A stretch of DNA of 64,000 nt, taken from Bacillota bacterium (GTDB lineage: Bacteria; Bacillota; Sulfobacillia; JACIYH01). The notes beneath the pieces were generated by a model. The model made no database searches and was not told where the DNA came from. It saw only the letters and a program-made list of their open reading frames with translations. The translations under genes were made by a program, and so were the position numbers. Location of the stretch: contig JBFLXJ010000023.1 in assembly GCA_040757085.1 (NCBI GenBank), forward strand, positions 190,457 to 254,456, read 5' to 3'. Position 1 is the stretch's first letter; each line of letters starts with the position of its first letter. Positions 23,231 to 51,295 of this stretch are shown piece after piece.

Positions 23231-23566
23231 GTGCCGCGCTGGCTGGATAACTGGATGATATACGAGATCACGCCTCAGGAGCGGGACGAGCTCATCGAGA
23301 AGCTGGCCCGCCTGGTGCAGCGGTTCGGCATGTACACTCCGGCCATATTCTTGCTGGAGACGGGGAAAGACCTGAGCTGGCTGGGCAGCCAGTTCATGCA
23401 CCTCTTTTCTCCCGTGATCACCGTGATCTGGAACGACTTTGAGAAGCTGGCTTTCCTGCTGGAAGACAAGCAGAACGTGGAGCGTCTGATCCAGCGCATC
23501 GAGGAACTCTCCGAACAGGAGAAGAAACAGGCCGCCAAGCGGAGGGAGAAAAGCCGTGCCCGCTGA
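23231..23566 (+). CDS. Small amphipathic/helical protein in MutL cassette 1
   Basis: A 111-residue protein of unknown function. It opens with a Trp-rich amphipathic stretch (RWLDNWMIYEITPQERDEL), has a moderately hydrophobic middle (YTPAIFLLETGKDLSWLG, then LFSPVITVIW) that could sit at the membrane surface, and ends in a charged probable coiled coil (VERLIQRIEELSEQEKKQAA). GTG 23231 follows GGAGGG. It overlaps MutL-B by 11 bases, so it is tightly linked to that ATPase. No domain name can be given. Confidence 0.7.
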   Translation: MPRWLDNWMIYEITPQERDELIEKLARLVQRFGMYTPAIFLLETGKDLSWLGSQFMHLFSPVITVIWNDFEKLAFLLEDKQNVERLIQRIEELSEQEKKQAAKRREKSRAR

Positions 23567-25373
23567 GATCACATCGGTGCTGGCCACCGACTGCGGCAGT
23601 ACCACCACCAAGGCCATCCTGATCGAGAAGATGGGTGACGAGTATCGGCTGGTGGTGCGGGGGGAAGCCCCCACCACGGTGGAGCGCCCCTTCGAGGACG
23701 TGACCATGGGGGTGCGTAACGCTGTCCGCGAGGTGGAGGAACTCACCGGTAGGAAGATCCTCTCGGAAGAGGGGATCATCAGCCCCCGGCAGCCGGACGG
23801 CAGCGGGGTGGATCTGTATCTTTCCACCTCCAGTGCCGGGGGCGGCTTGCAGATGATGGTGGCCGGAGTGGTCAAGAGCATGACCACCGAGAGCGCCCAG
23901 CGCGCCGCCCTGGGGGCGGGGGCCATCGTCATGGATGCGGTGGCCATCGACGACGGGCGCAAGACCCACGAGAAGATCGCCCTCATCCGCCACCTGCGCC
24001 CGGACATGATCCTCCTTTCGGGAGGGGTGGACGGGGGCACGGTCGCCCACGTGGTCCAGATCGCCGAGCTTATTGCCGCCGCCGAGCCCAGGCCCCGCCT
24101 GGGGATCGGCTACCGGCTGCCCGTCATCTACGCCGGTAACCGGGACGCGCGCCCGTACATGGAGCGCATCCTGGGGGAGCGATTTGACCTGCGGATGGTA
24201 GACAACCTGCGCCCGGTGCTGGAGAAAGAGGTGCTGGGACCGGCGCGGGAGGAAATCCACAACCTGTTCATGGAACACGTGATGGCCCAGGCACCCGGCT
24301 ATAACAAGCTGATGGCCTGGACCCACGCGCCCATCATGCCCACTCCCGCGGCGGTGGGGCTGGGCATGCAGACGGCGGCCCGGGAATACAGCCTGAACGT
24401 GATCGGGGTGGACATCGGAGGGGCGACCACCGACGTGTTCTCGGTGTACGGGGACCGTTTCGTGCGCACGGTTAGCGCCAACCTGGGCATGTCCTATTCC
24501 ATCTGCAACGTGCTGCTTGAGGCCGGGCTGGAGAACATCGTGCGCTGGATTCCCTTCGCCGTGGATGAGGCCGACATCAGGAACCGCATCCGCAACAAGA
24601 TGATCCGGCCCACCACCATCCCCCAGACCCTCGAGGAGCTGGCGATCGAGCAGGCCCTGGCCCGGGAAGCCCTGCGGCTGGCTTTTGAGCACCACAAGAC
24701 GCTGGCCGTCGGCCTGAAGGGGGTGCAGAGGCAGCGCACCATCGATGATACCTTCAGCCAGGCCGGAGCGGAGACGTACATCGACCTCATGGAACTGGGT
24801 CTCCTCATCGGTTCCGGCGGGGTGCTTTCCCACGCTCCCCGCCGGGTGCAGGCGGCCCTCATGATGCTGGATGCTTTCCTCCCCGAAGGCGTTACCCGCC
24901 TGGCGGTGGATTCCATCTTCATGATGCCCCAGTTGGGCGTGCTGTCCACGGTGCACGAGAAGGCAGCTGCCCAGGTTTTCGACCGGGACTGCCTGATCCA
25001 CCTGGGGACGGCGGTCGCCCCCGTGGGGCAGGGGAGGGAGGGCGAGCCCTGTCTGGCGGTGACCCTGCACCTGCCGGGGGGAAAGGTAGTCAGAGAAGAG
25101 GTGGCCTTCGGAGAGATCCGTCGCCTGCCGCTGGACGTGGGGCAAGAGGCAGAAGCGGAGATCCATCCCGCCCGGGGTTACGACGTGGGGCGGGGAAGGG
25201 GGCACGCCATGCGTACCACCCTGCACGGGGGAGTGGTGGGGATCATCCTGGATTGCCGGGGCAGGCCGCTGGCACTGCCGCCGGAGCCGGCGCGCCGGTG
25301 GCAGAAGCTCAGGGAGTGGGCCTTGGCCGTCGATCTCTACCCCCCTCAGTTCCTGGAGAAGCTGTCCGGTTAG
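23556..25373 (+). CDS. MutL-like ASKHA ATPase B
   Basis: A 605-residue paralogue of the ATPase at 19905 with the same motif order: DCGSTTTKAILIEKMG near residue 11, SSAGGGLQMMVAG near 94, VDIGGATTDVFSV near 284, GSGGVLSHAPRRVQ near 418. Long stretches match copy A almost residue for residue (VSANLGMSYSICNVL; EGVTxLAVDSIFMMPxLGVLS), implying a duplication with retained function. GTG 23556 lies inside the end of the small upstream gene. A barrel-sandwich partner follows 12 bases after its stop. Confidence 0.88.
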   Translation: MPAEITSVLATDCGSTTTKAILIEKMGDEYRLVVRGEAPTTVERPFEDVTMGVRNAVREVEELTGRKILSEEGIISPRQPDGSGVDLYLSTSSAGGGLQMMVAGVVKSMTTESAQRAALGAGAIVMDAVAIDDGRKTHEKIALIRHLRPDMILLSGGVDGGTVAHVVQIAELIAAAEPRPRLGIGYRLPVIYAGNRDARPYMERILGERFDLRMVDNLRPVLEKEVLGPAREEIHNLFMEHVMAQAPGYNKLMAWTHAPIMPTPAAVGLGMQTAAREYSLNVIGVDIGGATTDVFSVYGDRFVRTVSANLGMSYSICNVLLEAGLENIVRWIPFAVDEADIRNRIRNKMIRPTTIPQTLEELAIEQALAREALRLAFEHHKTLAVGLKGVQRQRTIDDTFSQAGAETYIDLMELGLLIGSGGVLSHAPRRVQAALMMLDAFLPEGVTRLAVDSIFMMPQLGVLSTVHEKAAAQVFDRDCLIHLGTAVAPVGQGREGEPCLAVTLHLPGGKVVREEVAFGEIRRLPLDVGQEAEAEIHPARGYDVGRGRGHAMRTTLHGGVVGIILDCRGRPLALPPEPARRWQKLREWALAVDLYPPQFLEKLSG

Positions 25374-25385
25374 GGAGGGATGGGC

Positions 25386-26585
25386 ATGGCGCACGCGTAC
25401 ACTCCGGGTCTGAAAGTCTCTGAATATGTGGTCATACAACGGCAGCGACGGTTGCCCATCCCGGGTCGGGTGCTGGTGGAGCAGGGGCAGGAGGTACGCC
25501 CCGACACGGTGGTGGCAGAGGCTTCCCTGCCCGGCAACCCCAATACCGTGAACGCTGCCGGCATGCTGGGTGTGGATCCTTCCGATTTGCCCCGGCTCAT
25601 GGTGAAGAAGGTGGGGGATGCGGTCAGGAAGGGCGAGGTGATCGCCCGCTACCGGGCCCTGCTGGGGCTGGTCTCAGGTACCTGCACTTCTCCCGTGGAT
25701 GGGACCATTGAGGCGGTGTCGGAGGTAACCGGGCAGGTGATCGTCCGGGAGCCACCCATCCCCGTCCAGATGAGGGCGTATCTGGAGGGCGTGGTGGCGG
25801 AAGTGATGCCCCGGGAAGGGGTGGTGGTGGAGGCGGAAGGGGCGTTCATCCAGGGGATTTTCGGGGTGGGGGGAGAGACGTATGGAGAGATCCAGGTGGT
25901 GGTGTCCCATCCCGAAGAGGTTCTGGATGCCGCCGCCATCGTGCCTGCCCACCGGGGCAAGGTGCTGGTGGGTGGTTCGCTGGTCACCGGGGCTGCCCTG
26001 CGGCGGGCCGTGGAGGTGGGAGCCCGGGGGGTAGTGGCGGGTGGCGTCATCGACCGGGACCTCATCGGCTTCCTGGGCCACGACATCGGGGTGGCCATCA
26101 CCGGTCATGAGGACATCGGGATCACGGTGATCGTGACCGAGGGCTTCGGCAAGATGGCCATGGCCCACCGCACCTTCGAACTGCTGCAGTCGCTGGAAGG
26201 CCGCATGGCTTCCATCAACGGCGCCACCCAGATCCGGGCGGGTGTGATGCGTCCCGAGATAGTGGTGCCCACCGGCAGCCGCCGCCCAGCGAAAACGGCA
26301 GCTCGGGCTGCTGGCGCCTCCGGCGAAGCTGCTCCTGCCTCGAGCCAAGCGGCCGGGCGCGCAGACAAAGCCGATGCGGGAGTGGTTTCTCAGGGCCTGG
26401 TGCCGGGGACCCGCGTCCGTATCATCCGGGAACCTTACTTCGGGCGCCTGGCCTACGTGACGGAGTTGCCTCCGGAATTGCAGGTGATCGAGACGGAAGC
26501 GAAGGTGCGCATCCTGCGGGCCCGCCTCGATTCGGGCGAAGTGGTCACCGTCCCCCGCGCCAACGTGGAGATCATCGAAGAATAG
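25386..26585 (+). CDS. Barrel-sandwich/KOW protein B, MutL-B partner
   Basis: A 399-residue homologue of protein A with only one barrel-sandwich unit (LPIPGRVLVEQGQEV near residue 22 to SPVDGTIEAVSEVTG near 101). It keeps the core (LVGGSLVTGAALRRAVEVG near 197, VAITGHEDIGITVI near 237, SINGATQIRAGVMRPEIV near 275) and the C-terminal KOW-like domain (RVRIIREPYFGRLA near 340 to VTVPRANVEII). An Ala/Ser-rich linker of about 40 residues (roughly 297-335) separates core and KOW. ATG 25386 is chosen because GGGAGGG lies 6 bases upstream; ATG 25380 overlaps that motif. Confidence 0.8.
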   Translation: MAHAYTPGLKVSEYVVIQRQRRLPIPGRVLVEQGQEVRPDTVVAEASLPGNPNTVNAAGMLGVDPSDLPRLMVKKVGDAVRKGEVIARYRALLGLVSGTCTSPVDGTIEAVSEVTGQVIVREPPIPVQMRAYLEGVVAEVMPREGVVVEAEGAFIQGIFGVGGETYGEIQVVVSHPEEVLDAAAIVPAHRGKVLVGGSLVTGAALRRAVEVGARGVVAGGVIDRDLIGFLGHDIGVAITGHEDIGITVIVTEGFGKMAMAHRTFELLQSLEGRMASINGATQIRAGVMRPEIVVPTGSRRPAKTAARAAGASGEAAPASSQAAGRADKADAGVVSQGLVPGTRVRIIREPYFGRLAYVTELPPELQVIETEAKVRILRARLDSGEVVTVPRANVEIIEE

Positions 26586-30165: not shown

Positions 30166-30564
30166 TCACGGCATGCAGGTGAAGCCCTGTTCCCGAAAGT
30201 GGGGATCAAACGTAAAGACGTTCTTCACACCCAGATCGCGCATGACTTCAAAGCTCACGCAGTCGACCAGGCTGAGGTTCCGACAGTTGGCGGCGAGCAA
30301 GGCAGCGACTCCCCTGCGGTGCAACTCCGAACCCACCCAGATAATACCGAGCAAGGGGAAGACGTCCTCAGAGAAACTCCGCACAGCCTCCATTCCGAGC
30401 CTATGTTGAACGAGAGTCCACGTTTCTACCAGGACATAGCTGCTCGAGATGAGCGGTGCCCTCTTGCTCAAGAGTGCTTCCCATACGCGCTTGGCGTGAC
30501 CGTGGTTCTGGTCGTCGGCATCAAGCACCGCAAGGAAAGCGGAAGTGTCTACGTAGACGGTCAT
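30166..30564 (-). CDS. PIN-domain toxin (VapC-like ribonuclease)
   Basis: A 132-residue PIN nuclease. Acidic metal-binding residues are visible in order: Asp in TVYVDTSAFLAVLDADD near residue 6, Glu in SSYVLVETWTLV near 46, Asp in LSLVDCVSFEVM near 100 and Asp in VFTFDPHF near 118. The start ATG overlaps the antitoxin stop in TAATG. The pair lies on the reverse strand between rimI and tsaD, interrupting an otherwise co-directional tsaE-tsaB-rimI-tsaD set. Cleavage target unknown. Confidence 0.9.
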   Translation of the reverse strand: MTVYVDTSAFLAVLDADDQNHGHAKRVWEALLSKRAPLISSSYVLVETWTLVQHRLGMEAVRSFSEDVFPLLGIIWVGSELHRRGVAALLAANCRNLSLVDCVSFEVMRDLGVKNVFTFDPHFREQGFTCMP

Positions 30565-30809
30565 TACCGATAGGCCTCCGCCAGGTACCTGTCGTGTTCC
30601 ACGGACAGATCCCGCAGACCTGACCTGAAGCGACCGGCCAGAGCGATTGCCCGGGAGACGCGCTCCTCAGCTGCGGTGCTCCAAGAACTGGCAATGACCA
30701 GGTCTACGCCTTTCCGGATCAAGTCGGCAACCGATTTGCCTTGCTCCGCGGCGAGCTTTTTCAACGCCCGCGCCTGCTCCTCGGTGAGTTGGACTTGCGT
30801 GCGTACCAC
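30564..30809 (-). CDS. Ribbon-helix-helix antitoxin of the PIN pair
   Basis: An 81-residue CopG/MetJ-type protein: beta strand RTQVQLTEEQARALKKLA, then helix EQGKSVADLIRKGVDLVI, with a C-terminal tail (SGLRDLSVEHDRYLAEAYR) that would wrap the PIN toxin. GTG 30809 is chosen because AGGAGGGG lies about 5 bases upstream on the minus strand; an earlier GTG at 30827 has no such signal. It probably represses its own promoter, seen just upstream at 30843-30871. Confidence 0.88.
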   Translation of the reverse strand: MVRTQVQLTEEQARALKKLAAEQGKSVADLIRKGVDLVIASSWSTAAEERVSRAIALAGRFRSGLRDLSVEHDRYLAEAYR

Positions 30810-37700: not shown

Positions 37701-39269
<1,569 letters not shown>

Positions 39270-39270
39270 C

Positions 39271-39555
39271 ATCCGGTTCGTACGGCCGGGAGAGGCCTAT
39301 CTGGGCGGGATGCGTATTGATCCCGACCTGCAGGGGCGGGGGCTGGGCACCGAGTTCGCCCGCTTCCAGATCGAGGAGTGCTGCTCCCTGGGTGCCAGGG
39401 TGGTCCGCCTGCTCACGTCCTGGGGCGGGCTGGGGTGCCTGGCGTACAGCCTGCCCGGAAACCTGGAGTGGGTGCTGAGGCGGGCCGTGACCCTGGGCTG
39501 CAACGGGAAGAAGAATTGGAGCGAATGGTTCTTGCTTTATGAGATCCGCTTGTGA
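39271..39555 (+). pseudogene. GNAT acetyltransferase remnant lacking its N-terminus
   Basis: Directly after the guaB stop an open frame reads IRFVRPGEAYLGGMRIDPDLQ and then GRGLGTEFARFQIEE, the acetyl-CoA-binding loop of a GNAT enzyme, and continues to TGA 39555. The only ATG (39310) lies inside what should be the middle of the fold, and no Shine-Dalgarno precedes it. About 50-60 N-terminal residues are missing, as if guaB or a deletion had cut the gene. It may instead be expressed as an 81-residue fragment, but an active enzyme is unlikely. Confidence 0.6.
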
Positions 39556-39683
39556 CCGGGAACTGCTGCGGCAGGAATTTTCCATACGACGTTGAATAAG
39601 GGGTATGTGGAGCCGGCATCTTCCTACGCGGGTGCCGGCGAGGAGTCGGCCCAGGTTAACAACGGCAAGGAGGTGAACAGCTC

Positions 39684-40496
39684 GTGTATTACCAGCTGGC
39701 GGCGGAACCGTACCTCGGCATCTTCGTAAAAGGCTCCTTTGTAGCGCTCATCATCTTCATCATCTACGCTATCCTGGTTTACTTCTTCATCCAGCGGGCC
39801 CGGGCGGGGTTGCCCATCCCCACCATCCGCAAGATCGCGGGCCTGGAAGCGCTGGACGAGGCCATCGGCCGCGCAACGGAGATGGGGCGCCCGGTGAACT
39901 ACGTGCCCGGCATCGCTGGATCTTCCAACATGCAGACCATCGCTTCTTACGCCATGCTCGGCCACGTGGCCAAGCGTACGGCCCAGTACGACACCCGCTT
40001 CATCTTCACCTGCGCTGACCCCATCGTGCTGCCCATCGCCGAGGAGATCATCCGGCAGTCCTACCTGGAGGCCGGGCGGCCCGACGCTTACAACCCGGAC
40101 GACGTCAGGTTCCTCTCGGACTGGCAGTTCGGGTACTGCTCGGGGGTGCTCGGTATCTACCATCGGGAGCGGCCCGCGGCCAACATCCTGTTCGGTGCCT
40201 TCTGGGCGGAGTCCCTGATCTTCGCCGAGGAGGGAAACCGCACCGGGTCCATCCAGATCGGGGCCACCGCGAACATGCACCAGATCCCCTTCTTCGTGGC
40301 CGCCTGCGACTACGCCCTGATCGGCGAGGAGATGTACGCGGCCTCGGCGTACCTGTCCAAGGAACCCGTGCTGTACGGGACCGTGGTCTCCCAGGACTGG
40401 ATGCGCATTGGCTTCTTCGCCGTGATCATCGTCGGTACCATATTCCAGCTGATCCAGGGGAAGGCCAACGTCATCACCAGCATCTTCAGCAAGTAG
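39684..40496 (+). CDS. DUF6754-like membrane-anchored protein
   Basis: A 270-residue protein with one N-terminal transmembrane segment (FVALIIFIIYAILVYFFI, about residues 14-31), a soluble domain of about 200 residues (EALDEAIGRATEMGRPVNYVP near 54; SSNMQTIASYAMLGHVAKRT near 75; RTGSIQIGATANMHQIPFF near 186), and a C-terminal segment (IGFFAVIIVGTIFQLI near 240). Size and layout recall DUF6754; the name is from memory. GTG 39684 follows a perfect AAGGAGGTGA. First gene of a four-gene membrane operon of unknown function. Confidence 0.68.
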   Translation: MYYQLAAEPYLGIFVKGSFVALIIFIIYAILVYFFIQRARAGLPIPTIRKIAGLEALDEAIGRATEMGRPVNYVPGIAGSSNMQTIASYAMLGHVAKRTAQYDTRFIFTCADPIVLPIAEEIIRQSYLEAGRPDAYNPDDVRFLSDWQFGYCSGVLGIYHRERPAANILFGAFWAESLIFAEEGNRTGSIQIGATANMHQIPFFVAACDYALIGEEMYAASAYLSKEPVLYGTVVSQDWMRIGFFAVIIVGTIFQLIQGKANVITSIFSK

Positions 40497-40523
40497 GGCT
40501 GGCCCGAGAAGGGAGGTGTGGGA

Positions 40524-41144
40524 ATGCGTAAAGAGTTGCCGACCATCATATGCATCGTCATGGCCGCGGTCGTGGTCCTGTCCATGTATATCTTCCCGAT
40601 CAACAAGCTCGAATGGATGGACATGTTTGACAAATGGAATAACCTGCTGTATTACCTGGCCATGGGCCTCGGCCTGGTCAACCTGACCCGTATCCACGTG
40701 ATGGCGGTGGTCAAGCGGCGTCCCAACTGGGCCTACAGCATCTGGCTGCTCCTGTTCATGTGGGGCTACATGATCCTTGCTCTTATCCAGACCGTGGACG
40801 GCCCCCAGGCGGACTGGGTTTTCAAGAACTTCATCACCCCCATCGACTCTACCGTGTTCGCCCTGCTGGCGTTTTACATCACCTCGGCTTCTTTCCGGGC
40901 CTTCCGGGCCAGGACGCTGGAGGCCACCCTGATGCTGCTCACGGCCTTTATCGTCCTCCTGGGCGTGTCGCCCCTGGGCGACCTCATCATCCCGGGCTGG
41001 GGGGCTTTCAAGGACTGGCTGCTGAGCTACCCCAACGCTGGTGGGCAGCGGGGCATCACCATCGGTATCTATCTGGGTACGCTGGCGGCGGCCCTGCGCG
41101 TGATGCTGGGCCTGGAGCGGGCGTACCTGGGTGGCGCGCGGTAA
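40524..41144 (+). CDS. Multi-TM membrane protein of the DUF6754 operon (gene 2)
   Basis: A 206-residue hydrophobic protein with about six transmembrane segments: LPTIICIVMAAVVVLSMYIF, NLLYYLAMGLGLVNLTRI, YSIWLLLFMWGYMILALIQ, TVFALLAFYITSASF, TLMLLTAFIVLLGVSPLG, and ITIGIYLGTLAAALRVMLG. No catalytic motif is apparent. ATG 40524 follows GGGAGGTG with 5-base spacing. It stands 27 bases after the first gene of the operon. Function unknown. Confidence 0.75.
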   Translation: MRKELPTIICIVMAAVVVLSMYIFPINKLEWMDMFDKWNNLLYYLAMGLGLVNLTRIHVMAVVKRRPNWAYSIWLLLFMWGYMILALIQTVDGPQADWVFKNFITPIDSTVFALLAFYITSASFRAFRARTLEATLMLLTAFIVLLGVSPLGDLIIPGWGAFKDWLLSYPNAGGQRGITIGIYLGTLAAALRVMLGLERAYLGGAR

Positions 41145-41174
41145 CAGTGCTGCCGGGAGAGGAGGTGCATTACC

Positions 41175-41993
41175 GTGAGGGCACTGGTAGATCTGGACCG
41201 GCGGTGGATATTTCTGGCAGTGTTCGTCCTGATCGCCATCGTGGTGATCTTCCCCTTGGGATTGCCCGTGCGTGTTACCCCCATGACCAAGGCCATGTAC
41301 GACTACGTCGACAAGCTCCCCCCCGGGTCGGTGCTCTGGCTGGGGCTTGACTACGGGCCCAGCGTGGCCGGAGAACTGAATCCCCAGCTGGAAGCCGTGG
41401 TCCATCACGCTTTCCGCAAGAACCTCCGCATCATCACGTACACCATGTGGAACACCCAGGGGACCCTGGGAAGAAACATCATCCAGAAGCTGATGAAGGA
41501 GTATAACAAGGAGTACGGTAAGGACTGGGTGGACCTCGGGTTCAAGCCCGGTGGTGATACCAACTTGCGGCTCATGACTTCCAGCATCAAGGAGGCGGCT
41601 GCGGGGGTCGATTATCAGGGCAAGTCACTGGACGAGTTCCCGCTCACCCGGGAAGTGAAAGCCCTCGATAAGCCGTACGTGGCATTCATCATCGACTTCC
41701 CGGCCGGTTCTCCTGGCGCCCCCCAGTACCTGGCCATCGTCACCGAGGTCAAGGGCGTGCCCATGGGCGTGGGCCAGATCCAGATGTCGGTGGCCGACTC
41801 CATGCAGTTCGTCCATTCGGGGCAGTATAAGGGCATGATCCCCGGCCTGCGGGGCGCGGCCGAGTACGAACAACTGGTGGGGAAGCCAGCGGCGGCGGTG
41901 CGGGCCATGGACGGGCAGACCCTGGCCGCGGGCCTGGTGGGCCTGCTCATCATCCTGGGCAACGTCATTTACTTGACCACCCGGAGCCGTTAG
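41175..41993 (+). CDS. Bitopic extracytoplasmic-domain protein of the DUF6754 operon (gene 3)
   Basis: A 272-residue protein: N-terminal transmembrane anchor (WIFLAVFVLIAIVVIFPLG, about residues 11-29), a central domain of about 200 residues, and a C-terminal anchor (LAAGLVGLLIILGNVIYLT near 250). Recognisable but unassigned stretches include LPPGSVLWLGLDYGPSVAGE near 49, IITYTMWNTQGTLGRNIIQK near 80 and VAFIIDFPAGSPGAPQYLAI near 174. GTG 41175 follows GGAGGTG. The repeated start-anchor and end-anchor layout resembles gene 1. Function unknown. Confidence 0.75.
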   Translation: MRALVDLDRRWIFLAVFVLIAIVVIFPLGLPVRVTPMTKAMYDYVDKLPPGSVLWLGLDYGPSVAGELNPQLEAVVHHAFRKNLRIITYTMWNTQGTLGRNIIQKLMKEYNKEYGKDWVDLGFKPGGDTNLRLMTSSIKEAAAGVDYQGKSLDEFPLTREVKALDKPYVAFIIDFPAGSPGAPQYLAIVTEVKGVPMGVGQIQMSVADSMQFVHSGQYKGMIPGLRGAAEYEQLVGKPAAAVRAMDGQTLAAGLVGLLIILGNVIYLTTRSR

Positions 41994-42023
41994 GCGAGGC
42001 TGGGCAGGTAAGGAGGTGAATTC

Positions 42024-42626
42024 ATGTCCACCGACGTGGGTGTCTGGTTGCAGGTGATATGCACCATCGGCGTCCTGACTTACCTGTACAAGGAAAACTG
42101 GTTCTGGCGTATCTTCGAGTACGCCATCGTGGCCGGTTACACCGGGTACAGCATCGCCTACGGCTACCACAACTACATCAAGCCCTTCATCGCCGACAAG
42201 ATGATCAAGGAAGGGCAGTGGTCCTTCCTGATCCCGCTCATCCTGGGCATCCTGCTGTACACCCGGTTCATCCCCGGATGGGGCTGGCTGGGCCGGTACG
42301 CCATGGCCTACATGATCGGATATGGCGCCGGCTACTCGCTGGGTTTCGACATCAAGCCTTTGCTGGGGCAGATCAGGGCCAGCTTCGTCAGCCTGAACAG
42401 CTTCAACAACCTTATCCTGTGGCTGTTCGTCCTCACCTCGCTGGCCTACTTCTTCTTCACCGTGAGCAAGGAGAGCCGCGGTATGAAGGGCCTGAGCACG
42501 GTGGGCAAGTGGGCCATCATGATCGCCCTGGGTGCCTCATTCGGCAACACCATCCTGTACCGCTACAACCTGCTTTATCCCCGCATGAAGCTCATCTTCA
42601 ACACCTGGCTGGGGTTGGGAGGCTGA
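42024..42626 (+). CDS. Multi-TM membrane protein of the DUF6754 operon (gene 4)
   Basis: A 200-residue protein with about six hydrophobic segments: VWLQVICTIGVLTYLY, IFEYAIVAGYTGYSIAYG, WSFLIPLILGILLYT, YAMAYMIGYGAGYSLGFD, FNNLILWLFVLTSLAYFFF, and KWAIMIALGASFGNTILY. The glycine-rich repeats (GYGAGYSLG) suggest tight helix packing. ATG follows AAGGAGGTG. Last gene before a strong intrinsic terminator, which makes genes 1-4 a single transcription unit. Function unknown. Confidence 0.75.
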   Translation: MSTDVGVWLQVICTIGVLTYLYKENWFWRIFEYAIVAGYTGYSIAYGYHNYIKPFIADKMIKEGQWSFLIPLILGILLYTRFIPGWGWLGRYAMAYMIGYGAGYSLGFDIKPLLGQIRASFVSLNSFNNLILWLFVLTSLAYFFFTVSKESRGMKGLSTVGKWAIMIALGASFGNTILYRYNLLYPRMKLIFNTWLGLGG

Positions 42627-42641
42627 CGGGAGAACCTGGCA

Positions 42642-42670
42642 GGGGCCGCCCGGTGACGGGCGGCCCCTTT
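42642..42670 (+). terminator. Intrinsic terminator after the DUF6754 operon
   Basis: A perfect 11-bp stem GGGGCCGCCCG / CGGGCGGCCCC with a GTGA loop is followed by TTT. This is the clearest intrinsic terminator in the window and separates the four-gene membrane operon from the ABC transporter genes downstream. Confidence 0.88.
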
Positions 42671-42761
42671 GCTCATGTGCGCCCTTCGCGCGCGACTGTG
42701 CGCAGGGGAAGCATGGGTCGGTCTGCGAGAGGGGCGGCACGGACATCGAGGAGGTGCTCAG

Positions 42762-43493
42762 GTGCCTGACTTGCTGCTGCGGGGGGTGAACCTGCGCCGG
42801 GTGTTCGTTCAGGGGCGGCGCGTGGTGCACGCCCTGGCCGGGGTCAGCCTGGCGGTGGCAGCGGGTGAGTTGCTCGTCATCACCGGGCCTTCGGGTTGTG
42901 GCAAGACCACCCTGCTTAACATCCTGGCGGGGATGGACCGTCCCTCCGCAGGCGAGGTGGTACTGGGTGACGTAGCCTACGGTAGCCTGTCCGAAGACGA
43001 CTTGTCCGCCCTCCGCAGGCAGCGCATAGGATACGTGTTCCAGTTCTCCAACCTGCTGCCCCACCTCAACGCCGTGGAAAACGTGGCCCTGCCCCTGCGC
43101 TTCCGGGGATGGAACCGGGACCGGGCCACCCGGCGCGCCCGCGAGATCCTGGAAGAAGTGGGCCTGGGAGCCCGCTGGCGGCACCGGCCCGGTGAGCTCT
43201 CCGGAGGGGAGCAGCAGCGGGTGGCCATCGCCCGCGCCGTGGCGGGTGATCCCGACCTGGTGCTGGCCGATGAACCGACCGGGAACCTGGACTCCCGCAC
43301 CGCCGCCCAGGTGGCGGACTTGTTCGAGCAGATCAACCGGCGGGGGCGTACCCTGGTGGTGGTCAGCCACGACCGCGCGCTGGTGGAGAGGGCGACTCGG
43401 GTGCTGGTCATGCGGGACGGCACCATCGCGGGCCCGGCCGGTCGAACCGGAGGGGCGCGGGACGGTGAAATGGCTGGCGGGGTCGGGGTTTAG
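42762..43493 (+). CDS. ABC transporter ATP-binding protein (LolD/MacB-like) 1
   Basis: A 243-residue ABC ATPase: Walker [17 protein letters not shown] near residue 42, Q-loop [13 protein letters not shown] near 93, signature [15 protein letters not shown] near 146, Walker [14 protein letters not shown] near 165 and switch His VVSHDRAL near 199. Sequence style matches LolD/MacB-type exporters that work with FtsX permeases. GTG 42762 has GAGGAGGTG upstream. A divergent barrel-sandwich gene separates it from a second ATPase, an unusual order. Confidence 0.9.
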
Positions 43494-43524
43494 GAGCTGT
43501 TGGGTGGGTTGAGGAGGTCAGGTG

Positions 43525-44652
43525 GTGCCGGTGATGCGGGTGGAGAGGGTGTGGGGTGCGGGCGGTCGGGCGGTCTGCCGCCCCGGGGACGACGTGGAGC
43601 CGGCCAGCGTGGTGGGCTACCGGCCTGCCCCCCCGCCCCGGGCGGTGCTGCTGGAGACGGACCAGGGGCAGACGGTCGCCACCCTCCTGCACCAGGTGGG
43701 TGACCGGGTGGCGCGGGGGGAGCCCCTGGCCTTCTATTCTTTCATGTTTGGGCTGGGTTACCGGGAATTCGTTTCCCCGGTGGACGGCGAGGTGGTGGCC
43801 ATTGAAAGCGGCCGGGTCATGGTGCAGCCCTTCCCGCCCGCGGTGAAGGCCCTGGTCAGGGGCCGGGTGGAAGAGGTCAGAGGTGACCGTGCCGTCATTT
43901 CTGCGGAGGGTATCCCTCTGCTGGGGAGAGCCGCCTGGGGACCGGCCCGGGGAGGAGACCTGGTGGTGCTACCCAATGGCGAAGTCTCTCCCGCCCGGCT
44001 GGGTCATGAGCATACGGGGCGGGTGGTGGCCGGGGGCTGGGCGGACCGGGAAGCCGTAGAGCGGGCATTTGCGCTGGGAGTGGCGGCCCTCGTCCTGGGC
44101 GGGGTGGCGCAGGCGGCGGTGGAGTGGCTCCAGAGGGTGCGGGCCGGCATGTCCCCGGACGAGTACCTGGCCCGGGTGTACGAGGGCCCGCGGGGGGCGG
44201 CGGGAGAGCCGCTGTGGCAGGACCAGGATGGCCTGCCCCTGAGCCTGGTCACCATGGGAGGATTCGGCCCGGTGCCGCTCTCCCGGGACGATTACGGCGC
44301 TCTCGTCGCGGCCCAGGACAAGTGGTGTTACGTGAGCGGGGAGGAATGCACTCCTCCCTGGGTGGGCATTGCGGGGGCCCGGAGCGGGACCGGGCCTGAC
44401 CACGGTAAGACGGAGATGACATTCGCGACCGGGGGACAGGTGGCCCGTGGATGCCGGGCCGATGTGGTGCCGGGGGCCAGAGTGTGCCTGACAGGCCTGC
44501 GTCGGGCCGGGCAGGAAGGCACGGTGGTGGAGGTCTTACCCGAGCCGGTGGTGCTCCCGACCGAGGTGCCGGTGCCAGCCGCCCGGGTCAGGTTGAACGA
44601 TGGAAGCCTGGTGATCGTGCCCCTGTCCAACCTGGAGTTGCTGCCCGGGTAG
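43525..44652 (+). CDS. Divergent barrel-sandwich/KOW protein D between two ABC ATPases
   Basis: A 375-residue homologue of the MutL partner proteins at 21784 and 25386, though more diverged. One barrel-sandwich unit (HQVGDRVARGEPLAFYSF near residue 57; FVSPVDGEVVAIESG near 82) is followed by a core with VVAGGWADREAVERAFALG near 168 and TMGGFGPVPLSRDDYGALVA near 243, and a C-terminal KOW-like domain (ARVCLTGLRRAGQEGTVVEV near 320 to LVIVPLSNLELL). The SINGATQIRAG motif of the others is not conserved. GTG 43525 follows GAGGAGGTCA. No signal peptide. Function unknown; it probably works with the ABC genes around it. Confidence 0.72.
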   Translation: MPVMRVERVWGAGGRAVCRPGDDVEPASVVGYRPAPPPRAVLLETDQGQTVATLLHQVGDRVARGEPLAFYSFMFGLGYREFVSPVDGEVVAIESGRVMVQPFPPAVKALVRGRVEEVRGDRAVISAEGIPLLGRAAWGPARGGDLVVLPNGEVSPARLGHEHTGRVVAGGWADREAVERAFALGVAALVLGGVAQAAVEWLQRVRAGMSPDEYLARVYEGPRGAAGEPLWQDQDGLPLSLVTMGGFGPVPLSRDDYGALVAAQDKWCYVSGEECTPPWVGIAGARSGTGPDHGKTEMTFATGGQVARGCRADVVPGARVCLTGLRRAGQEGTVVEVLPEPVVLPTEVPVPAARVRLNDGSLVIVPLSNLELLPG

Positions 44653-44675
44653 CCGAGCGCGGGGGTGGGGCGGCG

Positions 44676-45374
44676 GTGGCCGTACTTGAGGCGCGGGGTC
44701 TGTCGCGCAGATACATGCTGGGAGAGGAAATATGGGCGGTAAGGGATGTGGACCTGGCTGTCGCCGCGGGCGAACTGGTGGTGGTGGCGGGTCCTTCTGG
44801 CTGCGGCAAGACCACCCTGCTCTCCCTCCTGGGGGCCATGGACCGTCCCACCGGCGGCGAGGTGTACCTGCAGGGTCGCGCGTACTCCCGCCTGGGGCCT
44901 GGAGGTCTGGCCCGGCTGCGGCGGCGATACATAGGTTTCGTGTTTCAGGGGTTTCACCTGATCTCCCACCTGCGGGCCTGGGAAAATGTGGCCCTACCCC
45001 TGCGGATGGCGGGGGTGAGGGGGCGGGCGGCCCGCAGGCGGGCCATGGAACTGCTGGAGAGCGTGGGACTGGCTGCCCGGGCCCAGCACCTGCCCGGGGA
45101 GCTTTCCGGAGGCGAGCAGCAGCGCGTGGCAGTGGCCCGGGCCCTGGCCAACCGGCCCCTGGTGGTGCTGGCCGACGAGCCCACCGGCAACCTGGATGCC
45201 GCTTCCGGCCGGGCCATAGCGGCTCTCTTCGATCGTTTCCGCCGGGAAGGGATAGCCTTCCTGGTGGTAACCCACCACCGGGAAACCTTCCTGCCGTACG
45301 CCTCGCGGGTCCTGGACATGCGGGACGGGCGGCTGTACGGCCCTGCCTCCGGGGGGGACGGGGATGCACCGTAG
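44676..45374 (+). CDS. ABC transporter ATP-binding protein (LolD/MacB-like) 2
   Basis: A 232-residue ABC ATPase with Walker [17 protein letters not shown] near residue 39, [19 protein letters not shown] near 90, signature [16 protein letters not shown] near 143, Walker [13 protein letters not shown] near 162 and switch His VVTHHRETF near 195. GTG 44676 has GGGGGTGGGG 5 bases upstream. It overlaps the first permease by 11 bases. Two distinct ATPases and two distinct permeases suggest a heteromeric exporter-type complex. Confidence 0.9.
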
Positions 45375-46779
45375 GCCGGATTACCCGATGACGGCTAACC
45401 TGGGGGAAGAAATCGGGCTGGCGCTGGGCAACCTGTGCCGCTGGTGGTGGCGGTACCTGCTGACCGCCCTTGTGCTGGGGGCGGGCATGGCGGTGCTGGT
45501 GCTGAGCCTCGCCTATATTTCCGCCCACGGGCGGCTGCTGGGACGGGAATGCCCTCGTATCCGCCTTCCCTGCGACCTGGTGCTGCGGGTACCGCCGGCG
45601 GTACGGGTGCTGGTGGACCCCGGTCAGCCCGAGAACAACATCCCTCCCACCTACCGCTACGACAGCGTGTTCGGGGGGGATCTGGCCCGGGCAGTGCAAA
45701 AGGCGAATGTGGCCTGGATGGAGGGGGCGGCAGCGGTGCCCCTCCTCACGGGTCCCCTGGGGCAGGGGGAAGTGTGGTACGTGGTGCCCGGCGGGCGTTT
45801 GGTCTCTGCCCTGGCGTGGGAAGCCGGCGGGCCCCCCCGGGGGACGGGAGAGGTCGGACTGCCTGCCCAGTGGGCCGGGCGGGCCGGCGTGGGGGTGGGA
45901 GACGAGATAGAACTGGGGTTCATCGATCCCGGCACAGGCTTTTTGCGCGTTCAGACGTGCCGGGTAGCGGGAATATACAGCGGAATCGATCCCGTTCTGG
46001 CCGTGCCCCTGTTGCCCCTGGGTGATCTGGAGGAGCGCGATTATGCCGGGGAATTGCGGGAAAAGGGAGAGGTAGCCTGGCCCTACGCGAATACGCTCCT
46101 GGTCAGTTTCCGGGAAGAGGCAGATGCCGCCCTCTTCTGGCGGATTCTTAACAATTCGGAATATCAGGTGTACGAAATCGTGCAGGCGGAGACGCCACGG
46201 GAAATGGTGGCCGCTCTCACCTGGCACATGTACGGGCCGGTGCAGTCCCTGTTCCCCCTGCTGTTCGTCTTTGCCGGCCTGGGTGTGTTCGCCAGCACCC
46301 TGCTGGCCGTGCTCGACCGCCGCCGGGAACTGGCCATCTTGAAAGCGGTGGGCATCCCTGGCCGGGAAATCGGTCGCATCCTCACTCTGGAGGCCCTGGC
46401 CGCTGGCCTCCTGGGATGCGGGCTGGGTTGGGCCGGGGCGGTCCTGATGCGACCCTGGCTGGGGGGACCTGGGGGAGCGTCGCTGATCATCTCCTCGGGG
46501 ATGGTGCTGGGCGCAGCGCTGGCGGTGCTGGTGACGGCGACCCTGGCCGCGGCGGGACCGGCGGCTATGGCGCGGGCCGCCACGGTGAGCGAACTCCTGC
46601 ACGGACGTACCATCCGCCTGTGGCACCAGCGCATCGGCACCCCTCGGCCGGCCTGGCCGCAGGTAAGCGGCGCGGCGCGGGGCCAACACCAGGCAGGCGG
46701 CATTCCCTCCAGGGGCTTCGGCCGCCCGGTGGGCGACGTGCCGCCTCCGGGTGGCGGGCAGCGCGGTGGGGGTGGGTGA
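45364..46779 (+). CDS. FtsX-like ABC permease 1
   Basis: A 471-residue MacB/FtsX-type permease: TM1 about residues 30-52 ([20 protein letters not shown]), a large extracytoplasmic domain (about 55-285), and three C-terminal TMs ([21 protein letters not shown] near 294, [19 protein letters not shown] near 338, [19 protein letters not shown] near 375). [20 protein letters not shown] near 318 is the usual inter-TM motif. A Gly/Pro-rich cytoplasmic tail of about 50 residues ends the protein. Substrate unknown. Confidence 0.85.
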
Positions 46780-46782
46780 GAC

Positions 46783-48276
46783 GTGTTCCTGCTGCTTGGG
46801 TTCGTGAACGCCTGGCGCAACCTCTCCCGCAGTGCGGTTGCCCTCATTGGGGTGGGGCTGGCAGCGGCGGTTTTCACCGCTTCTCTCTCCCTGGGGACGG
46901 GGTACCCTGCGGCAGCCGGGCTGGAGTACCGCTTCGTGCTGGGGGGAGACATCGTCCTGTTTCCGGCCCGCTACTGGTTCGCGGATCGGGGCGGTGAGAT
47001 GAGGCTGCAAAAGGCGAACCCCGACCTGATCTTTCCCCTGGGCTATTTCCAGCCGGGGGCCTTCACCCGGGGATTTGTCGCGCCTGCCGATATGCCCGGG
47101 CTCGTCGAAGCCGGGGAGCTCGCTGCCGTGACGGGAGAGGCGGTCGAGGGCGTGGTGCCCTACTGGCTGCTGCCGGCGCGGCTGATCCGGCAGGTGGTAG
47201 ACGAGCAGGGCCGGGTGGCATGGTTGGGTGAACCGGTGGCCCTCCGGGGGAGGGATGTGGTGAAGGACCTGGCCTGGTGGCGGTGTGAGGAAATGGTGTT
47301 GGAGGGGCGCTACCTGGAGCCCGGTGACGAGGGACGCCCGGTGGCGGTGGTGTTCTCGGGTGCTGCACGGGTGGGTGACACGCTGACGGTGTGGGTGCCG
47401 GCCTTGCGCCAGGATGGCGAGGACCTGCGGGCTGACGACCGCGGGGGCCGGGAGTACCGGTTCCAGGTGGTGGGCGTGCTTAAGCTGCCCGGGCGGGTGG
47501 TCACGGTGAGCCGAGAGGGAGACACGCCGGTCACCGTGCCGGTATCGTGGCAGCCCGGGGAAATCTTCGTACCCGCCCGCACCCTGGAGGGCATTTACCG
47601 GGAGGTGACCGGCCGGGAACTGGACCGGGCACCGGCCGCCCTGGTGCGCCTGACCTCGGTGGCATACCTGGAGGAGGTAGCGGCCGCCCTGGGGCGGCGT
47701 TACCCCCAGTGGGCGGCAGTAAGTGTCCCGCGGTTGCTCCACGAGGGGGTCGGTGACGGGCTGGTCCTCCCGGAGGAGTGGCGCCGCGGGCTCGTCGGCC
47801 TGCCCTACGCCGGGGCAGGGGGAATTAGGCTGGCGGGAAAGGGAACGGTTGCCCCTCCGCCGCCCCCCCAGGCCGTCATCCCCGTGGATCCGGGCCGGTC
47901 GGGGCTCTACCTCGTGTACGCGGTGGCGGGGATGCTGGTAGCGGTGAACATGCTGGTGCTGGTGTCGGGTCGGCAGGAGGAAATCGGCGTGCTGCGGGCC
48001 CTGGGGGCGCGCGGGCACGAGGTTATGGCCATGGTGCTGGGCGAGTGCCTGGCGGTGAGCCTGGTCGGGAGCGGGGTGGCCTTTGGCTTCATCCACCTGC
48101 TGGGCACCTGGAACCTGGTATCCAACCGCATGCCCTGGCTGGAGGTGGCGGTGCGCACGCTGGATCACCTGGTCCAGGTGTTGTTGCTTTCCGCCCTCAT
48201 GGGCGTGCTGTTTGGCCTCATCCCGGCCTGGCGTGCCCTGCGGCGCAGCCCGGTGGACCTCCTCAAGGGCCTCTGA
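46783..48276 (+). CDS. FtsX-like ABC permease 2
   Basis: A 497-residue permease with TM1 (SAVALIGVGLAAAVFTASLSL, about 16-36), a long extracytoplasmic domain, and C-terminal TMs (LYLVYAVAGMLVAVNMLVLV near 375, LGECLAVSLVGSGVAFGFI near 415, VQVLLLSALMGVLFGLIPAW near 468). QEEIGVLRALGARGHEVMAM near 396 and the end RRSPVDLLKGL are FtsX-family features. GTG 46783 follows GGTGGGGGTGGGTGAG by 2-4 bases and lies 3 bases after the first permease stop. Confidence 0.85.
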   Translation: MFLLLGFVNAWRNLSRSAVALIGVGLAAAVFTASLSLGTGYPAAAGLEYRFVLGGDIVLFPARYWFADRGGEMRLQKANPDLIFPLGYFQPGAFTRGFVAPADMPGLVEAGELAAVTGEAVEGVVPYWLLPARLIRQVVDEQGRVAWLGEPVALRGRDVVKDLAWWRCEEMVLEGRYLEPGDEGRPVAVVFSGAARVGDTLTVWVPALRQDGEDLRADDRGGREYRFQVVGVLKLPGRVVTVSREGDTPVTVPVSWQPGEIFVPARTLEGIYREVTGRELDRAPAALVRLTSVAYLEEVAAALGRRYPQWAAVSVPRLLHEGVGDGLVLPEEWRRGLVGLPYAGAGGIRLAGKGTVAPPPPPQAVIPVDPGRSGLYLVYAVAGMLVAVNMLVLVSGRQEEIGVLRALGARGHEVMAMVLGECLAVSLVGSGVAFGFIHLLGTWNLVSNRMPWLEVAVRTLDHLVQVLLLSALMGVLFGLIPAWRALRRSPVDLLKGL

Positions 48277-48362
48277 CCCCCGCCCCTGTCGGTTTCGGGG
48301 TGGGCGCCGTCGAGGGCCCGTCAAAAGCGCGGCACGGGAGCTTCAGGGATGGAGGTGGGGGC

Positions 48363-50195
48363 GTGAGCCGTTTGATCCTGGGTCTGGACGTGGGGAGCAC
48401 CACCACCAAAGCCACCCTCTTTGAAGAGGGGCCGGAGGGATGGCGTCTGGCCGGGCAGGCCAATGCCCCCACCACGGTGGAAGCCCCCCTGGAGGACGTA
48501 ATGGTGGGGGTGAGGGAGAGCCTGCGCCGGCTCGGGCAGGTCACGGGGCGCGTTCTGCTGGACGAGAGGGGCGAATTGATCCGCCCCCGCCAGGGTGACC
48601 GGGGGGTGGACGTGGTGGCGGCCAGTTCCAGCGCGGGGGGCGGACTGCAGATGCTGGTGGCGGGCGTGATGCGCGAGCTCACGGCAGAGAGCGCCGAGCG
48701 GGCTGCCCTGGGAGCAGGTGCCATCGTGGTGGACGTGCTCGCCATCGACGACGGGCGCTCGCCCGTGGAGAAGGTGCACGCCGTCCGTGCCGTCCGTCCC
48801 GACATGGTACTCCTGTCCGGAGGTACGGACGGGGGCGGGGTGTCCCACGTGGTAGCCCTGGCCGAGTGCCTGCGGGCGGCCCAGCCCCGGCCCCGGTTCG
48901 GGGAAGGTTACCGCCTGCCCGTGGTGTACGCGGGAAACGTGCGCGCCCGCCCCCACGTGCAGGAGCAACTGGGCGAGCATTTCGTCGTCTCCATGGTGTC
49001 CAACCTGCGCCCCGTGCTGGAGAGGGAGGAACCGGAGCCGGCGCGACAGGAAATCCTCCGGCTCTTTCTGGAACATGTGATGAAGCATGCCCCCGGGTAT
49101 CCCCGGCTCCTGGAGTGGACGGGGGGCAGGATCCTCCCCACTCCGGTGGCGGTCGGCACGGCCGTGCGCCTTCTGGCGGAGAAATGGCGGGGCAATGTGC
49201 TGGCGGTGGACATCGGAGGAGCCACCACCGACGTGTTTTCCGTGGTGGGGGGAGTGTTCAACCGCACGGTGTCCGCCAACCTGGGCCTTTCCTACAGCAG
49301 CCCGCATGTTTTCGCCCAGGCCAGCTTCGCCAACCTGGCGCGCTGGCTGCCCTTTGCCGTGTGCGAGGACGAATTGCGCAACTGGATCGCGAACAAGATG
49401 ATCCGGCCCACCGTGTTGCCCGAAACCGTGGAAGAACTCATGGTGGAACACGCCCTCGCCCGGGAAGCCCTGCGCCTTTCTTTTCGCGAGCACCTGCGCC
49501 TGGCCAGGGAACTCAAGGGGATCCAGTTACAGCGCACCATCGCGGACATCTTTTCGCCTAAATCGTCCGGGGCTCCCCTGGTGGAGATGCGCACCGTGGA
49601 CGCCATCGTGGGTGCCGGTGGGGTGATATCCCATGCCCCCCGGCCCCAGCAGGGACTTCTCATCCTCCTGGACGGGCTCCAGCCCGAGGGGGTAACGGAG
49701 CTTTATTGGGACCGGGGCTTTCTGCTCCCCCACCTGGGAGCCCTGGCCGAATCCGACCCGGAACTGGGCCTGCGCCTGCTCCAGGAGAGTCTGGTCCACC
49801 TGGCCACCGTAATCGCCCCGGTGGCACCGCGGACTCGCCCCGGCGCTCGAATCGCGGAAATGGTAGTGAGTCGGCAGGGGACGGTGGGCCGGGAAATTAT
49901 CCGCCAGGGAGACTTCCGCATCTTCCCCTGGTACCGGGGGGAAGTCCTGGAGGTGGAACTGCGCCCGGCCCGGGCGGTGGACGTGGGGGCCGGACCCGGG
50001 AAACTGGTGCGTACCCGGCTGGAAGGGGGCCAGTACGGCGTGATCCTGGATGCCCGGGGACGGCCCCTCTCCCCTCCCGAAGACGAGGCTGCCCGCCGCG
50101 ACTGGCTGCTGGGCATCATGCAGTTCCTGGACGCCTATCCCAGGGAGGCTCTTACAGCGTGCCAGGGGCGCGGGGCCGAGGGGGGTCGGAATTGA
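48363..50195 (+). CDS. MutL-like ASKHA ATPase C
   Basis: A 610-residue third homologue of the ATPases at 19905 and 23556: LDVGSTTTKATLFEEG near residue 8, SSSAGGGLQMLVAG near 92, VDIGGATTDVFSVVGG near 281, GAGGVISHAPRPQQG near 416. It is more diverged than A and B are from each other (SANLGLSYSSPHVF in place of SANLGMSYSICNVL), yet all nucleotide-binding motifs persist. GTG 48363 follows GGAGGTGGGG. Its stop and the partner ATG share one base (TGATG). Again no mutase genes are near; the neighbours are ABC permeases. Confidence 0.88.
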   Translation: MSRLILGLDVGSTTTKATLFEEGPEGWRLAGQANAPTTVEAPLEDVMVGVRESLRRLGQVTGRVLLDERGELIRPRQGDRGVDVVAASSSAGGGLQMLVAGVMRELTAESAERAALGAGAIVVDVLAIDDGRSPVEKVHAVRAVRPDMVLLSGGTDGGGVSHVVALAECLRAAQPRPRFGEGYRLPVVYAGNVRARPHVQEQLGEHFVVSMVSNLRPVLEREEPEPARQEILRLFLEHVMKHAPGYPRLLEWTGGRILPTPVAVGTAVRLLAEKWRGNVLAVDIGGATTDVFSVVGGVFNRTVSANLGLSYSSPHVFAQASFANLARWLPFAVCEDELRNWIANKMIRPTVLPETVEELMVEHALAREALRLSFREHLRLARELKGIQLQRTIADIFSPKSSGAPLVEMRTVDAIVGAGGVISHAPRPQQGLLILLDGLQPEGVTELYWDRGFLLPHLGALAESDPELGLRLLQESLVHLATVIAPVAPRTRPGARIAEMVVSRQGTVGREIIRQGDFRIFPWYRGEVLEVELRPARAVDVGAGPGKLVRTRLEGGQYGVILDARGRPLSPPEDEAARRDWLLGIMQFLDAYPREALTACQGRGAEGGRN

Positions 50196-51295
50196 TGCAG
50201 GTGACGCTGATCCGGCGGGAACGGCGGCTTCCTTTTCCCGGGGAAGTGCTGGCGGAGCCGGGCCAGATTGTCGAGCCCCACACGGTGGTGGCGCGCGCCA
50301 CCCTGGTGCCCGGGATGCCCTACGTGGTGGAGGTGGCCCGGGAGCTGGGGGTTGAGCCGGCTGAAATACGGCGACACGTCCTGAAGGTACCCGGGGAAAG
50401 GGTGGGGACCGGCGAGGTGCTGGCTCGGGTGGACAAAGGGTTGGGTGGCGTGCGGGAATGTCGCAGCCCCTGCGACGGGGTGGTGGAGGCCATACTGACC
50501 GGTCACGGGCAGGTGCTGGTGCGGGAGGACGCCCGCAAGGCTGCCCCCGTGGTGTGGGTGGATGTAGCCCGCCGGCTGGACGTACGCCCGGAGCGGATCC
50601 GGGCTTTCCTGCGGGTCAAGGAGGGAGACGAGGTACAGGCGGGTGAACTGATCGCTCAGGGCCTGGAAGGACTCATGGCGGCCCGGGTATATGCCCCGGT
50701 GTCCGGGGTGGTGGAAAAGGTGGATGCCCGCACGGGCGGGCTGGCCATCCGCCGTCCCCACCGTCCCGCAGAGGTGGATGCCTACCTGGCGGGACGGGTG
50801 GTGGAGGTGTTCCCCGAGTGGGGAGCCGCCATCGCTGCCCTGGGCCACGAGGTCACCGGGGTATTCGGCATCGGGGGGCAGGCCTACGGGGCGCTGCGGG
50901 TGGCCGTCTCCGGTCCGGAGGAGGTACTGGACGTGGGGTCGATCGGCGATGATGACTCGGGGAGGGTGCTGCTTGGCGGGTCGCTCGTGACCCTGGATGC
51001 TCTGCGCCGGGCGCGGGAGGTTGGGGTGCGCGGGATCATAACTGGCAGCGCCAACCAGGGTGACCTGGTCGCCTTCACCGGCAAAGAGATGGTGGTGGGG
51101 ATCACCGGGCAGGAGCCGGGACCCACGGTGGTGCTGATGTCCGGATTCGGGCGCCGGGCCATGGATTCCAGTCTCTTCGGGGAACTGGCGTACCACCAGG
51201 GTCGCACGGTTTCCCTGGACGGTACCACCCAGGTGCGGGCGGGCGCTGTCCGCCCCGAGGTGCTCATCCCTCTCGAGCCCGCTCCCTCTCCCTGA
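50195..51295 (+). CDS. Barrel-sandwich protein C, MutL-C partner (no KOW domain)
   Basis: A 366-residue homologue with two barrel-sandwich units (LPFPGEVLAEPGQIV near residue 11 to RSPCDGVVEAILTG near 90; VKEGDEVQAGELIAQG near 142 to APVSGVVEKVDARTGG near 167) and the conserved core (LLGGSLVTLDALRRAREVG near 258, VGITGQEPGPTVVLMSGFG near 301, SLDGTTQVRAGAVRPEVL near 339). It stops right after the core (LIPLEPAPSP), so the C-terminal KOW-like domain of the other three is absent. ATG 50195 overlaps the MutL-C stop. Confidence 0.78.
   Translation: MQVTLIRRERRLPFPGEVLAEPGQIVEPHTVVARATLVPGMPYVVEVARELGVEPAEIRRHVLKVPGERVGTGEVLARVDKGLGGVRECRSPCDGVVEAILTGHGQVLVREDARKAAPVVWVDVARRLDVRPERIRAFLRVKEGDEVQAGELIAQGLEGLMAARVYAPVSGVVEKVDARTGGLAIRRPHRPAEVDAYLAGRVVEVFPEWGAAIAALGHEVTGVFGIGGQAYGALRVAVSGPEEVLDVGSIGDDDSGRVLLGGSLVTLDALRRAREVGVRGIITGSANQGDLVAFTGKEMVVGITGQEPGPTVVLMSGFGRRAMDSSLFGELAYHQGRTVSLDGTTQVRAGAVRPEVLIPLEPAPSP

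Follow-up and report, generated by a model that had tools for sequence, protein, structure and literature searches.

A conserved four-gene membrane module, tied to a MutL-type ATPase and a barrel-sandwich protein, that looks like an undescribed transport machine

Energy-coupling factor (ECF)-type transporters combine a small number of energising modules with many specific membrane units that share them. A different role is attached to the MutL/GlmL-type ATPases (PF13941); the excerpted text of PMC4682846 describes GlmL, a relative of MutL, as a chaperone reactivating glutamate mutase. DUF6754 (PF20539) is a catalogued Pfam family to which no function has been assigned. All three are relevant to a locus in a Bacillota bacterium (GenBank assembly GCA_040757085.1, contig JBFLXJ010000023.1, positions 190,457 to 254,456 of the forward strand; this whole 64-kb stretch is termed the window), where four consecutive membrane-protein genes, g1–g4, comprise a DUF6754 member and the three constant partners of that family here, themselves without a family. 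These four genes are a real, always-together set in several bacterial phyla and not one operon alone; they are tied, by adjacency and by presence and absence, to a MutL/GlmL-type ASKHA ATPase (MutL) and an RnfC/NqrA-like barrel-sandwich protein (BSH), and the module has the look of a so far undescribed machine for membrane transport. No paper on the g1–g4 unit or on DUF6754 was found in the open-licence part of PubMed Central, a scope that does not establish absence in print. The four genes in the window are:

39684-40496, plus strand: g1, DUF6754 protein, a conserved (probably cytoplasmic) domain between two transmembrane (TM) segments
40524-41144, plus strand: g2, protein of about six TM segments, without a family
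41175-41993, plus strand: g3, a variable (probably extracytoplasmic) Rossmann-type domain between two TM segments, without a family
42024-42626, plus strand: g4, protein of about six TM segments, without a family

Membership of g1 in DUF6754 is clear (E 1.1e-98, 329.9 bits against a curated cut-off of 27), and PF20539 was matched by 33/33 diverse g1 proteins. Averaged hydropathy places the TM segments of g1 at residues 8-42 and 229-265 and those of g3 at residues 3-37 and 241-272, leaving about 190-200 residues in between, and gives about six segments each, counted by eye, for g2 and g4. This bears out a sequence-only reading of the locus, which had proposed two proteins anchored at both ends around a soluble domain of about 200 residues and two further proteins of about six TM segments; the structural model of g3 agrees with it. 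The same reading had called the function unknown, which holds, although g1 does carry a catalogued family name. In g1, positive charge follows the first TM segment (3.1 K/R after it versus 0.1 before), and because of this the positive-inside rule suggests a cytoplasmic soluble domain. The charge pattern of g3 is less marked; an N-terminal LDRR and a basic C-terminal tail suggest that its domain is extracytoplasmic, which probably places the two soluble domains across the membrane from each other.

Searches with the other three proteins were largely negative. No Pfam family was found for g2, g3 or g4, either as single proteins or in sets of 23, 24 and 39 diverse members, and no NCBIfam family; a faint NCBIfam match of g3 to crotonase (E 0.026) was dropped, and DUF5366 was matched by g4 below the cut-off only, in 1/24 members. 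Searches of g1–g4 against PDB profiles returned nothing usable, and profile comparison ruled out g2 and g4, or g1 and g3, as duplicates of each other. The AlphaFold2 model of g3 (pLDDT 76.9, pTM 0.76, from an alignment of 7 sequences) shows an alpha/beta domain of Rossmann type flanked by two helices, an arrangement that is common; structure searches found no specific relative, the best structural comparison having Z 8.8 (rmsd 3.3 Å, 147 residues aligned) and the best Foldseek match E 8.5e-4 with a TM-score of 0.31. A classical binding protein was considered for g3 and set aside as not distinctive, ribose-binding protein (Z 7.8) and LuxP (Z 7.5) ranking under short-chain dehydrogenase/reductase and carbon monoxide dehydrogenase epsilon-subunit entries. 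The g1 model is weak (pLDDT 63) and its Foldseek matches are meaningless.

The set is found well beyond the window. A g3 search gave matches in 25/61 relatives, with up to 29 in one genome, some of them partial, and of the 111 distinct g3 proteins collected 96 lie in consecutive same-strand g1-g2-g3-g4 units with median intergenic gaps of 25, 22 and 15 nucleotides (nt). Tandem units occur. Among the other 15 g3 proteins, six-frame search completes 4 further units, 4 are read as units cut off where a contig or locus ends (loci L123, L141, L152 and L163), 5 are alone, and 2 are entries of a single locus, L101 (2994-4956), where g3 is split across two frames and no g1 was found, probably a decaying copy or an assembly error. 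The five lone homologues (L082, 8573-9496; L089, 7997-9043; L136; L159; L160) have no g1, g2 or g4 found in their loci, and those in L082 and L089 lie near a long protein of one common cluster. A scan of named genomes found six loci, in metagenome-assembled genomes (MAGs) of Bacillota, Planctomycetota, Zixibacteria, GN15 and Myxococcales. When units are compared in pairs, the identities of their four subunits covary (Spearman 0.52-0.60, 6314 pairs), as would be expected from a shared history or a complex, and across 113 units the mean pairwise column identity is 0.50 in the soluble domain of g1 and 0.30 in that of g3.

Where the sequence-only reading saw a four-gene membrane set of undefined function, the set itself is right and conserved but is not self-contained, since it belongs with MutL and BSH. 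MutL lies directly 3' of g4 in 13 fetched loci, usually followed by BSH, and several loci carry a second block, of the small conserved gene c6, MutL and BSH, after the first; in a Myxococcales MAG BSH is directly 5' of g1, and in GN15 (L198) and Zixibacteria (L201) MutL is divergent to tandem units. Of 299 genomes of the phylum, DUF6754 is present in 25 and a strong BSH match (E below 1e-60, nine genomes with matches near 1e-4 being uncounted) in 24, both being present in 23 (Fisher p 5e-31); two genomes have DUF6754 only (G078, 78% complete, and G152), one has BSH only (G068), and 273 have neither. In the 61 relatives BSH accompanies g3 in 25/25 genomes, versus 4/36 without g3 (p 3e-13). Outside the phylum, Planctomycetota MAG G351 has DUF6754 without detected BSH. 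PF13941 is broader than DUF6754, being above cut-off in 120/299 genomes; among the matches listed, 14 MutL proteins of 611-635 amino acids (aa; E 1e-126 to 1e-130) all lie in DUF6754-positive genomes.

The linked ATPase matches PF13941 over the whole profile (E 4.4e-122 for the first window copy), and the MutL consensus keeps DVGSTTTKA and GVDIGGATTDVFS, which we take to be the ASKHA phosphate-binding motifs. It differs from described MutL/GlmL proteins in a C-terminal stretch of about 150 aa without a Pfam match, in copies of about 600-640 aa, and in its pairing with BSH and g1–g4. BSH shares the barrel-sandwich domain of RnfC/NqrA (first window copy, RnfC_N E 5.7e-8, 33.1 bits against a cut-off of 25.6), and no NADH, flavin or iron-sulphur domain was found in it; among g1–g4, Pfam found none of the subunits RnfA/B/D/E/G or NqrB-F. 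Genomes with several copies have more g1–g4 units than MutL-BSH pairs: in Ca. Fermentithermobacillus there are 14 DUF6754 matches (two of them fragments) versus about 5 BSH proteins, in Zixibacteria 6 versus 1 and in GN15 5 versus 1.

The pattern of a modular transporter is suggested because many divergent units stand beside different small-molecule pathways and regulators, with few ATPase-adaptor pairs. We give an even chance to the view that g1–g4 is a new multi-subunit small-molecule transport system in which many units share one or a few such pairs. Its four subunits would form one complex moving a small organic molecule across the cytoplasmic membrane, with g2 and g4 providing the path, the variable outer domain of g3 selecting the substrate, and the conserved inner domain of g1 acting as a common docking site for MutL and BSH, which may hydrolyse ATP to drive or reset the complex; many units would be served by a single MutL-BSH pair or a few, much as in ECF transporters, and import would be likelier than export. 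The identities of the two soluble domains fit g1 meeting shared partners and g3 meeting varied substrates. We infer each element of this scheme, namely complex formation, transport, its direction, the substrate and the role of ATP.

The likeness to ECF-type transporters lies in the many units and few energising modules, whereas the ATPase is of ASKHA and not ATP-binding cassette (ABC) type, there are four specific subunits instead of one, and no sequence relation was found. With ABC and tripartite ATP-independent periplasmic (TRAP) importers the units share co-location with catabolic enzymes and regulators. They differ from ABC importers in that g1–g4 contain no ABC_tran match and neither g3 nor its partners contain a substrate-binding protein family, and among the loci read ABC genes follow g4 in this genus and in L094 but nowhere else; for TRAP, no DctM/DctQ-type match to g2 or g4 was seen at the E limits used, and DctQ appeared only at E 0.1 with one g1.

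The gene contexts come from units without MutL or BSH in their fetched locus, which often adjoin genes of small-molecule breakdown or salvage. Their nearest neighbours (133 of 135 proteins, two of 1253 and 1270 aa being excluded) include Amidohydro_3 (14), Amidohydro_1 (13), M20 (5), Beta-lactamase2 (4), Beta-lactamase (3) and M24 (3), and SBP_bac_5 in only 2/133; control genes (a random 135 of 290) include Amidohydro_3 (4), M20 (3) and radical SAM (6). Units of Ca. Fermentithermobacillus, which is a predicted sporulating fermenter of peptides and amino acids according to the excerpted text of PMC10215811, where the unit goes unmentioned, adjoin M20 proteins, amidohydrolases, ThiD and ThiM kinases, and a creatininase with an RpiR regulator; others adjoin IclR with DUF1028, a beta-lactamase-fold protein, and an alcohol dehydrogenase-family and aminotransferase-family pair that we read as threonine dehydrogenase/KBL.

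A number of observations weigh against transport. In sequence, none of the four subunits is similar to a known transporter, and the folds found are generic. The enrichment of Amidohydro_3 among neighbours (p 0.012) is modest, the family having been chosen after the counts were seen, and the neighbours of many units are ordinary. Peptide-type SBP_bac_5 proteins also occur in unit-rich genomes (G015, 20 matches; G029, 7; G048, 9; G007, 5), counts which do not support the idea that the units replace peptide ABC importers, and the unit of L094 is followed by an apparent oligopeptide ABC set, as judged by eye. The window unit is a single one and adjoins MacB-type ABC genes, not catabolic enzymes. 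To these may be added the DUF6754 genomes without detected BSH (G078, G152 and G351), the five g3 genes that stand alone, and the relatives of MutL, described in the excerpt of PMC4682846 as reactivating chaperones and not as energisers.

The last point leads to the main alternative, that g1–g4 is a membrane-bound enzyme complex for redox or group-transfer chemistry, with MutL-BSH as its ATP-dependent reactivase or cofactor loader, comparable to GlmL and its described reactivation of glutamate mutase (PMC4682846, as excerpted). The similarity of BSH to RnfC_N and NqrA_N, as in membrane redox pumps, is in keeping with this, as are the strong conservation of the g1 domain and its faint similarity to IF-2B, seen in 3/33 members with a best E of 1e-4. 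However, g1–g4 showed no recognisable cofactor motif or catalytic set, and the many divergent paralogues beside unrelated pathways, together with an outer domain that is poorly conserved, are a better fit to varied substrates than to a single chemistry; we regard such an enzyme as doubtful, without being negligible.

To our knowledge, the ASKHA-type fold is not used by the ATPase of any known transporter, so if the transport reading is true the ATPase partner would have a fold new among transporters. In its boldest form this would be a new class of primary active transporter, an ASKHA-powered four-subunit module with a barrel-sandwich adaptor and tens of substrate-specific copies in fermentative bacteria, which we consider unlikely. 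Three of four subunits without a family, an occurrence in several phyla and a copy number that reaches about 29 in one genome suggest a major environmental interface in uncultured fermenters, and the contexts of the paralogues (creatininase, ThiD-ThiM, D-aminoacylase-type) offer guesses at substrates.

Signals for expression of the unit were found at both of its ends:

39572-39600, plus strand: sigma-H-type promoter, -35 AGGA, 17 nt, -10 GAAT
39667-39676, plus strand: Shine-Dalgarno site of g1, AAGGAGGTGA
42642-42667, plus strand: terminator-like hairpin, 11-bp stem followed by TTT

A near-perfect Shine-Dalgarno site had been proposed for each gene, and the sites are indeed unusually strong, here and in other copies. 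In the window the longest matches to TAAGGAGGTGA are 10, 7, 8 and 11 nt for g1 to g4, and over the fetched loci, with gene starts from the analysis's own gene caller, a match of at least 8 nt precedes 215/415 g1–g4 genes, versus 25/363 other genes with a homologue among the loci and 4/53 MutL/BSH genes. Long Shine-Dalgarno sites are therefore a property of the family and not chance.

The promoter box (AGGAATT...GTTGAATAA), upstream of g1, is the sole such site in the window by the pattern used and is conserved at the loci of two congeneric genomes (G001 and G002). AGGA-N17-GAAT or AGGA-N18-GAAT, where AGGA is followed by A or T, lies in the 300 nt that precede 17/100 g1 genes versus 18/585 control genes (p 8e-7), where some g1 genes are closely related and independent events number fewer than 17; spacing 17 alone accounts for 14 g1 genes versus 9 controls, and other spacings for 0-3 in the g1 set. 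The excerpted text of PMC12456013 gives AGGA and GAAT with spacers of 17-18 nt for SigH promoters of Sporomusa. A sigH gene is above cut-off in this genome and in 14/16 genomes tested, and a sigma-H promoter probably drives the window unit, which would mean transcription under nutrient limitation. This promoter would also suit a membrane receptor or scaffold with a signalling role linked to sigma-H and to starvation, g3 being the sensor of outside ligands and g1 the part that recruits or switches MutL-BSH inside; an outer domain that varies and an inner one that is conserved, and the IclR and RpiR regulators adjoining some units, fit this too. It is nevertheless rather improbable, as about 16 TM segments over four proteins exceed the needs of a receptor, and g1–g4, MutL and BSH contain no output domain.

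The g1 leader contains an inverted repeat (GCCGGCATC...GGGTGCCGGC, 39613-39640) that is conserved across three species and may serve as an operator or form a leader hairpin. A structured 5' leader was rejected, the folding energy being ordinary in all three species (z -0.5, -0.7 and -1.2), and Rfam gave only sub-threshold chance matches on 39200-42800. As for the strong terminator that had been claimed, the hairpin is present (arms 42642-42652 and 42657-42667, GTGA loop, folding z = -4.3) and two congeneric genomes retain it, with a single C-to-T substitution that yields G-U, differing loops and diverging flanks; its T-run is short, though, and it is absent from the output of a pattern scan, so that a strong terminator is no more than plausible.

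The window holds one g1–g4 unit, three MutL and four BSH copies, in two blocks: c9-MutL-BSH-c6-MutL-BSH at 19.5-26.6 kb, and g1–g4 with BSH, MutL and MacB-type genes at 39.7-51.3 kb. Outside g1–g4, these blocks contain:

19469-19903 (start uncertain), plus strand: c9, small protein of two TM segments that precedes g1 in relatives (own profile, E 2.7e-36)
19905-21806, plus strand: MutL 1, ASKHA ATPase (PF13941, E 4.4e-122)
21784-23127, plus strand: BSH 1 (RnfC_N 5.7e-8, above cut-off)
23231-23566, plus strand: c6, small conserved protein (own profile)
23556-25373, plus strand: MutL 2 (own MutL profile, 1069 bits; PF13941, E 2.4e-127)
25386-26585, plus strand: BSH 2 (A3 profile, E 2.4e-165)
42762-43493, plus strand: ABC ATPase (PF00005, E 9.7e-35 on the longer open reading frame (ORF) 42669-43493)
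43522-44652, plus strand: BSH paralogue (A3 profile, E 4.5e-107)
44664-45374 (start uncertain), plus strand: ABC ATPase (PF00005, E 1.4e-30 on the longer ORF 44451-45374)
45364-48276, plus strand: two FtsX/MacB-type permeases, 45364-46779 and 46783-48276 (PF02687)
48363-50195, plus strand: MutL paralogue 3 (PF13941, E 1.1e-116)
50180-51295 (start approximate), plus strand: BSH paralogue (A3 profile; RnfC_N 2.7e-7)

That the unit serves the downstream MacB-type ABC system in this genus (e.g. in export or cell-envelope work), its wider contexts being incidental, is suggested by the ABC and FtsX-type genes after g4 here and by clustered homologues after g4 in G001 and G002, but is very improbable, given that such genes were not seen beside most other units and that the conserved core is g1–g4 with MutL-BSH. 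From 42762 to 51295, the two ABC ATPases and the two permeases are interspersed with the BSH and MutL paralogues; among the loci seen, G001 and G002 show part of this arrangement.

In relatives (e.g. L088, L095 and L096) g1–g4 lies between c9 and MutL, and because these two genes abut in the window (19903/19905) the window unit was probably moved out by about 20 kb, or re-copied, from the c9-MutL block. Upstream of the unit, an 81-aa ORF at 39310-39555 resembles, by eye, the end of a GNAT acetyltransferase, with no Pfam match, and is probably a remnant because G002 (L031) has a longer ORF in the same place. At 30166-30809 on the minus strand are two small genes that appear, by eye, to encode a PIN-type toxin and its antitoxin.

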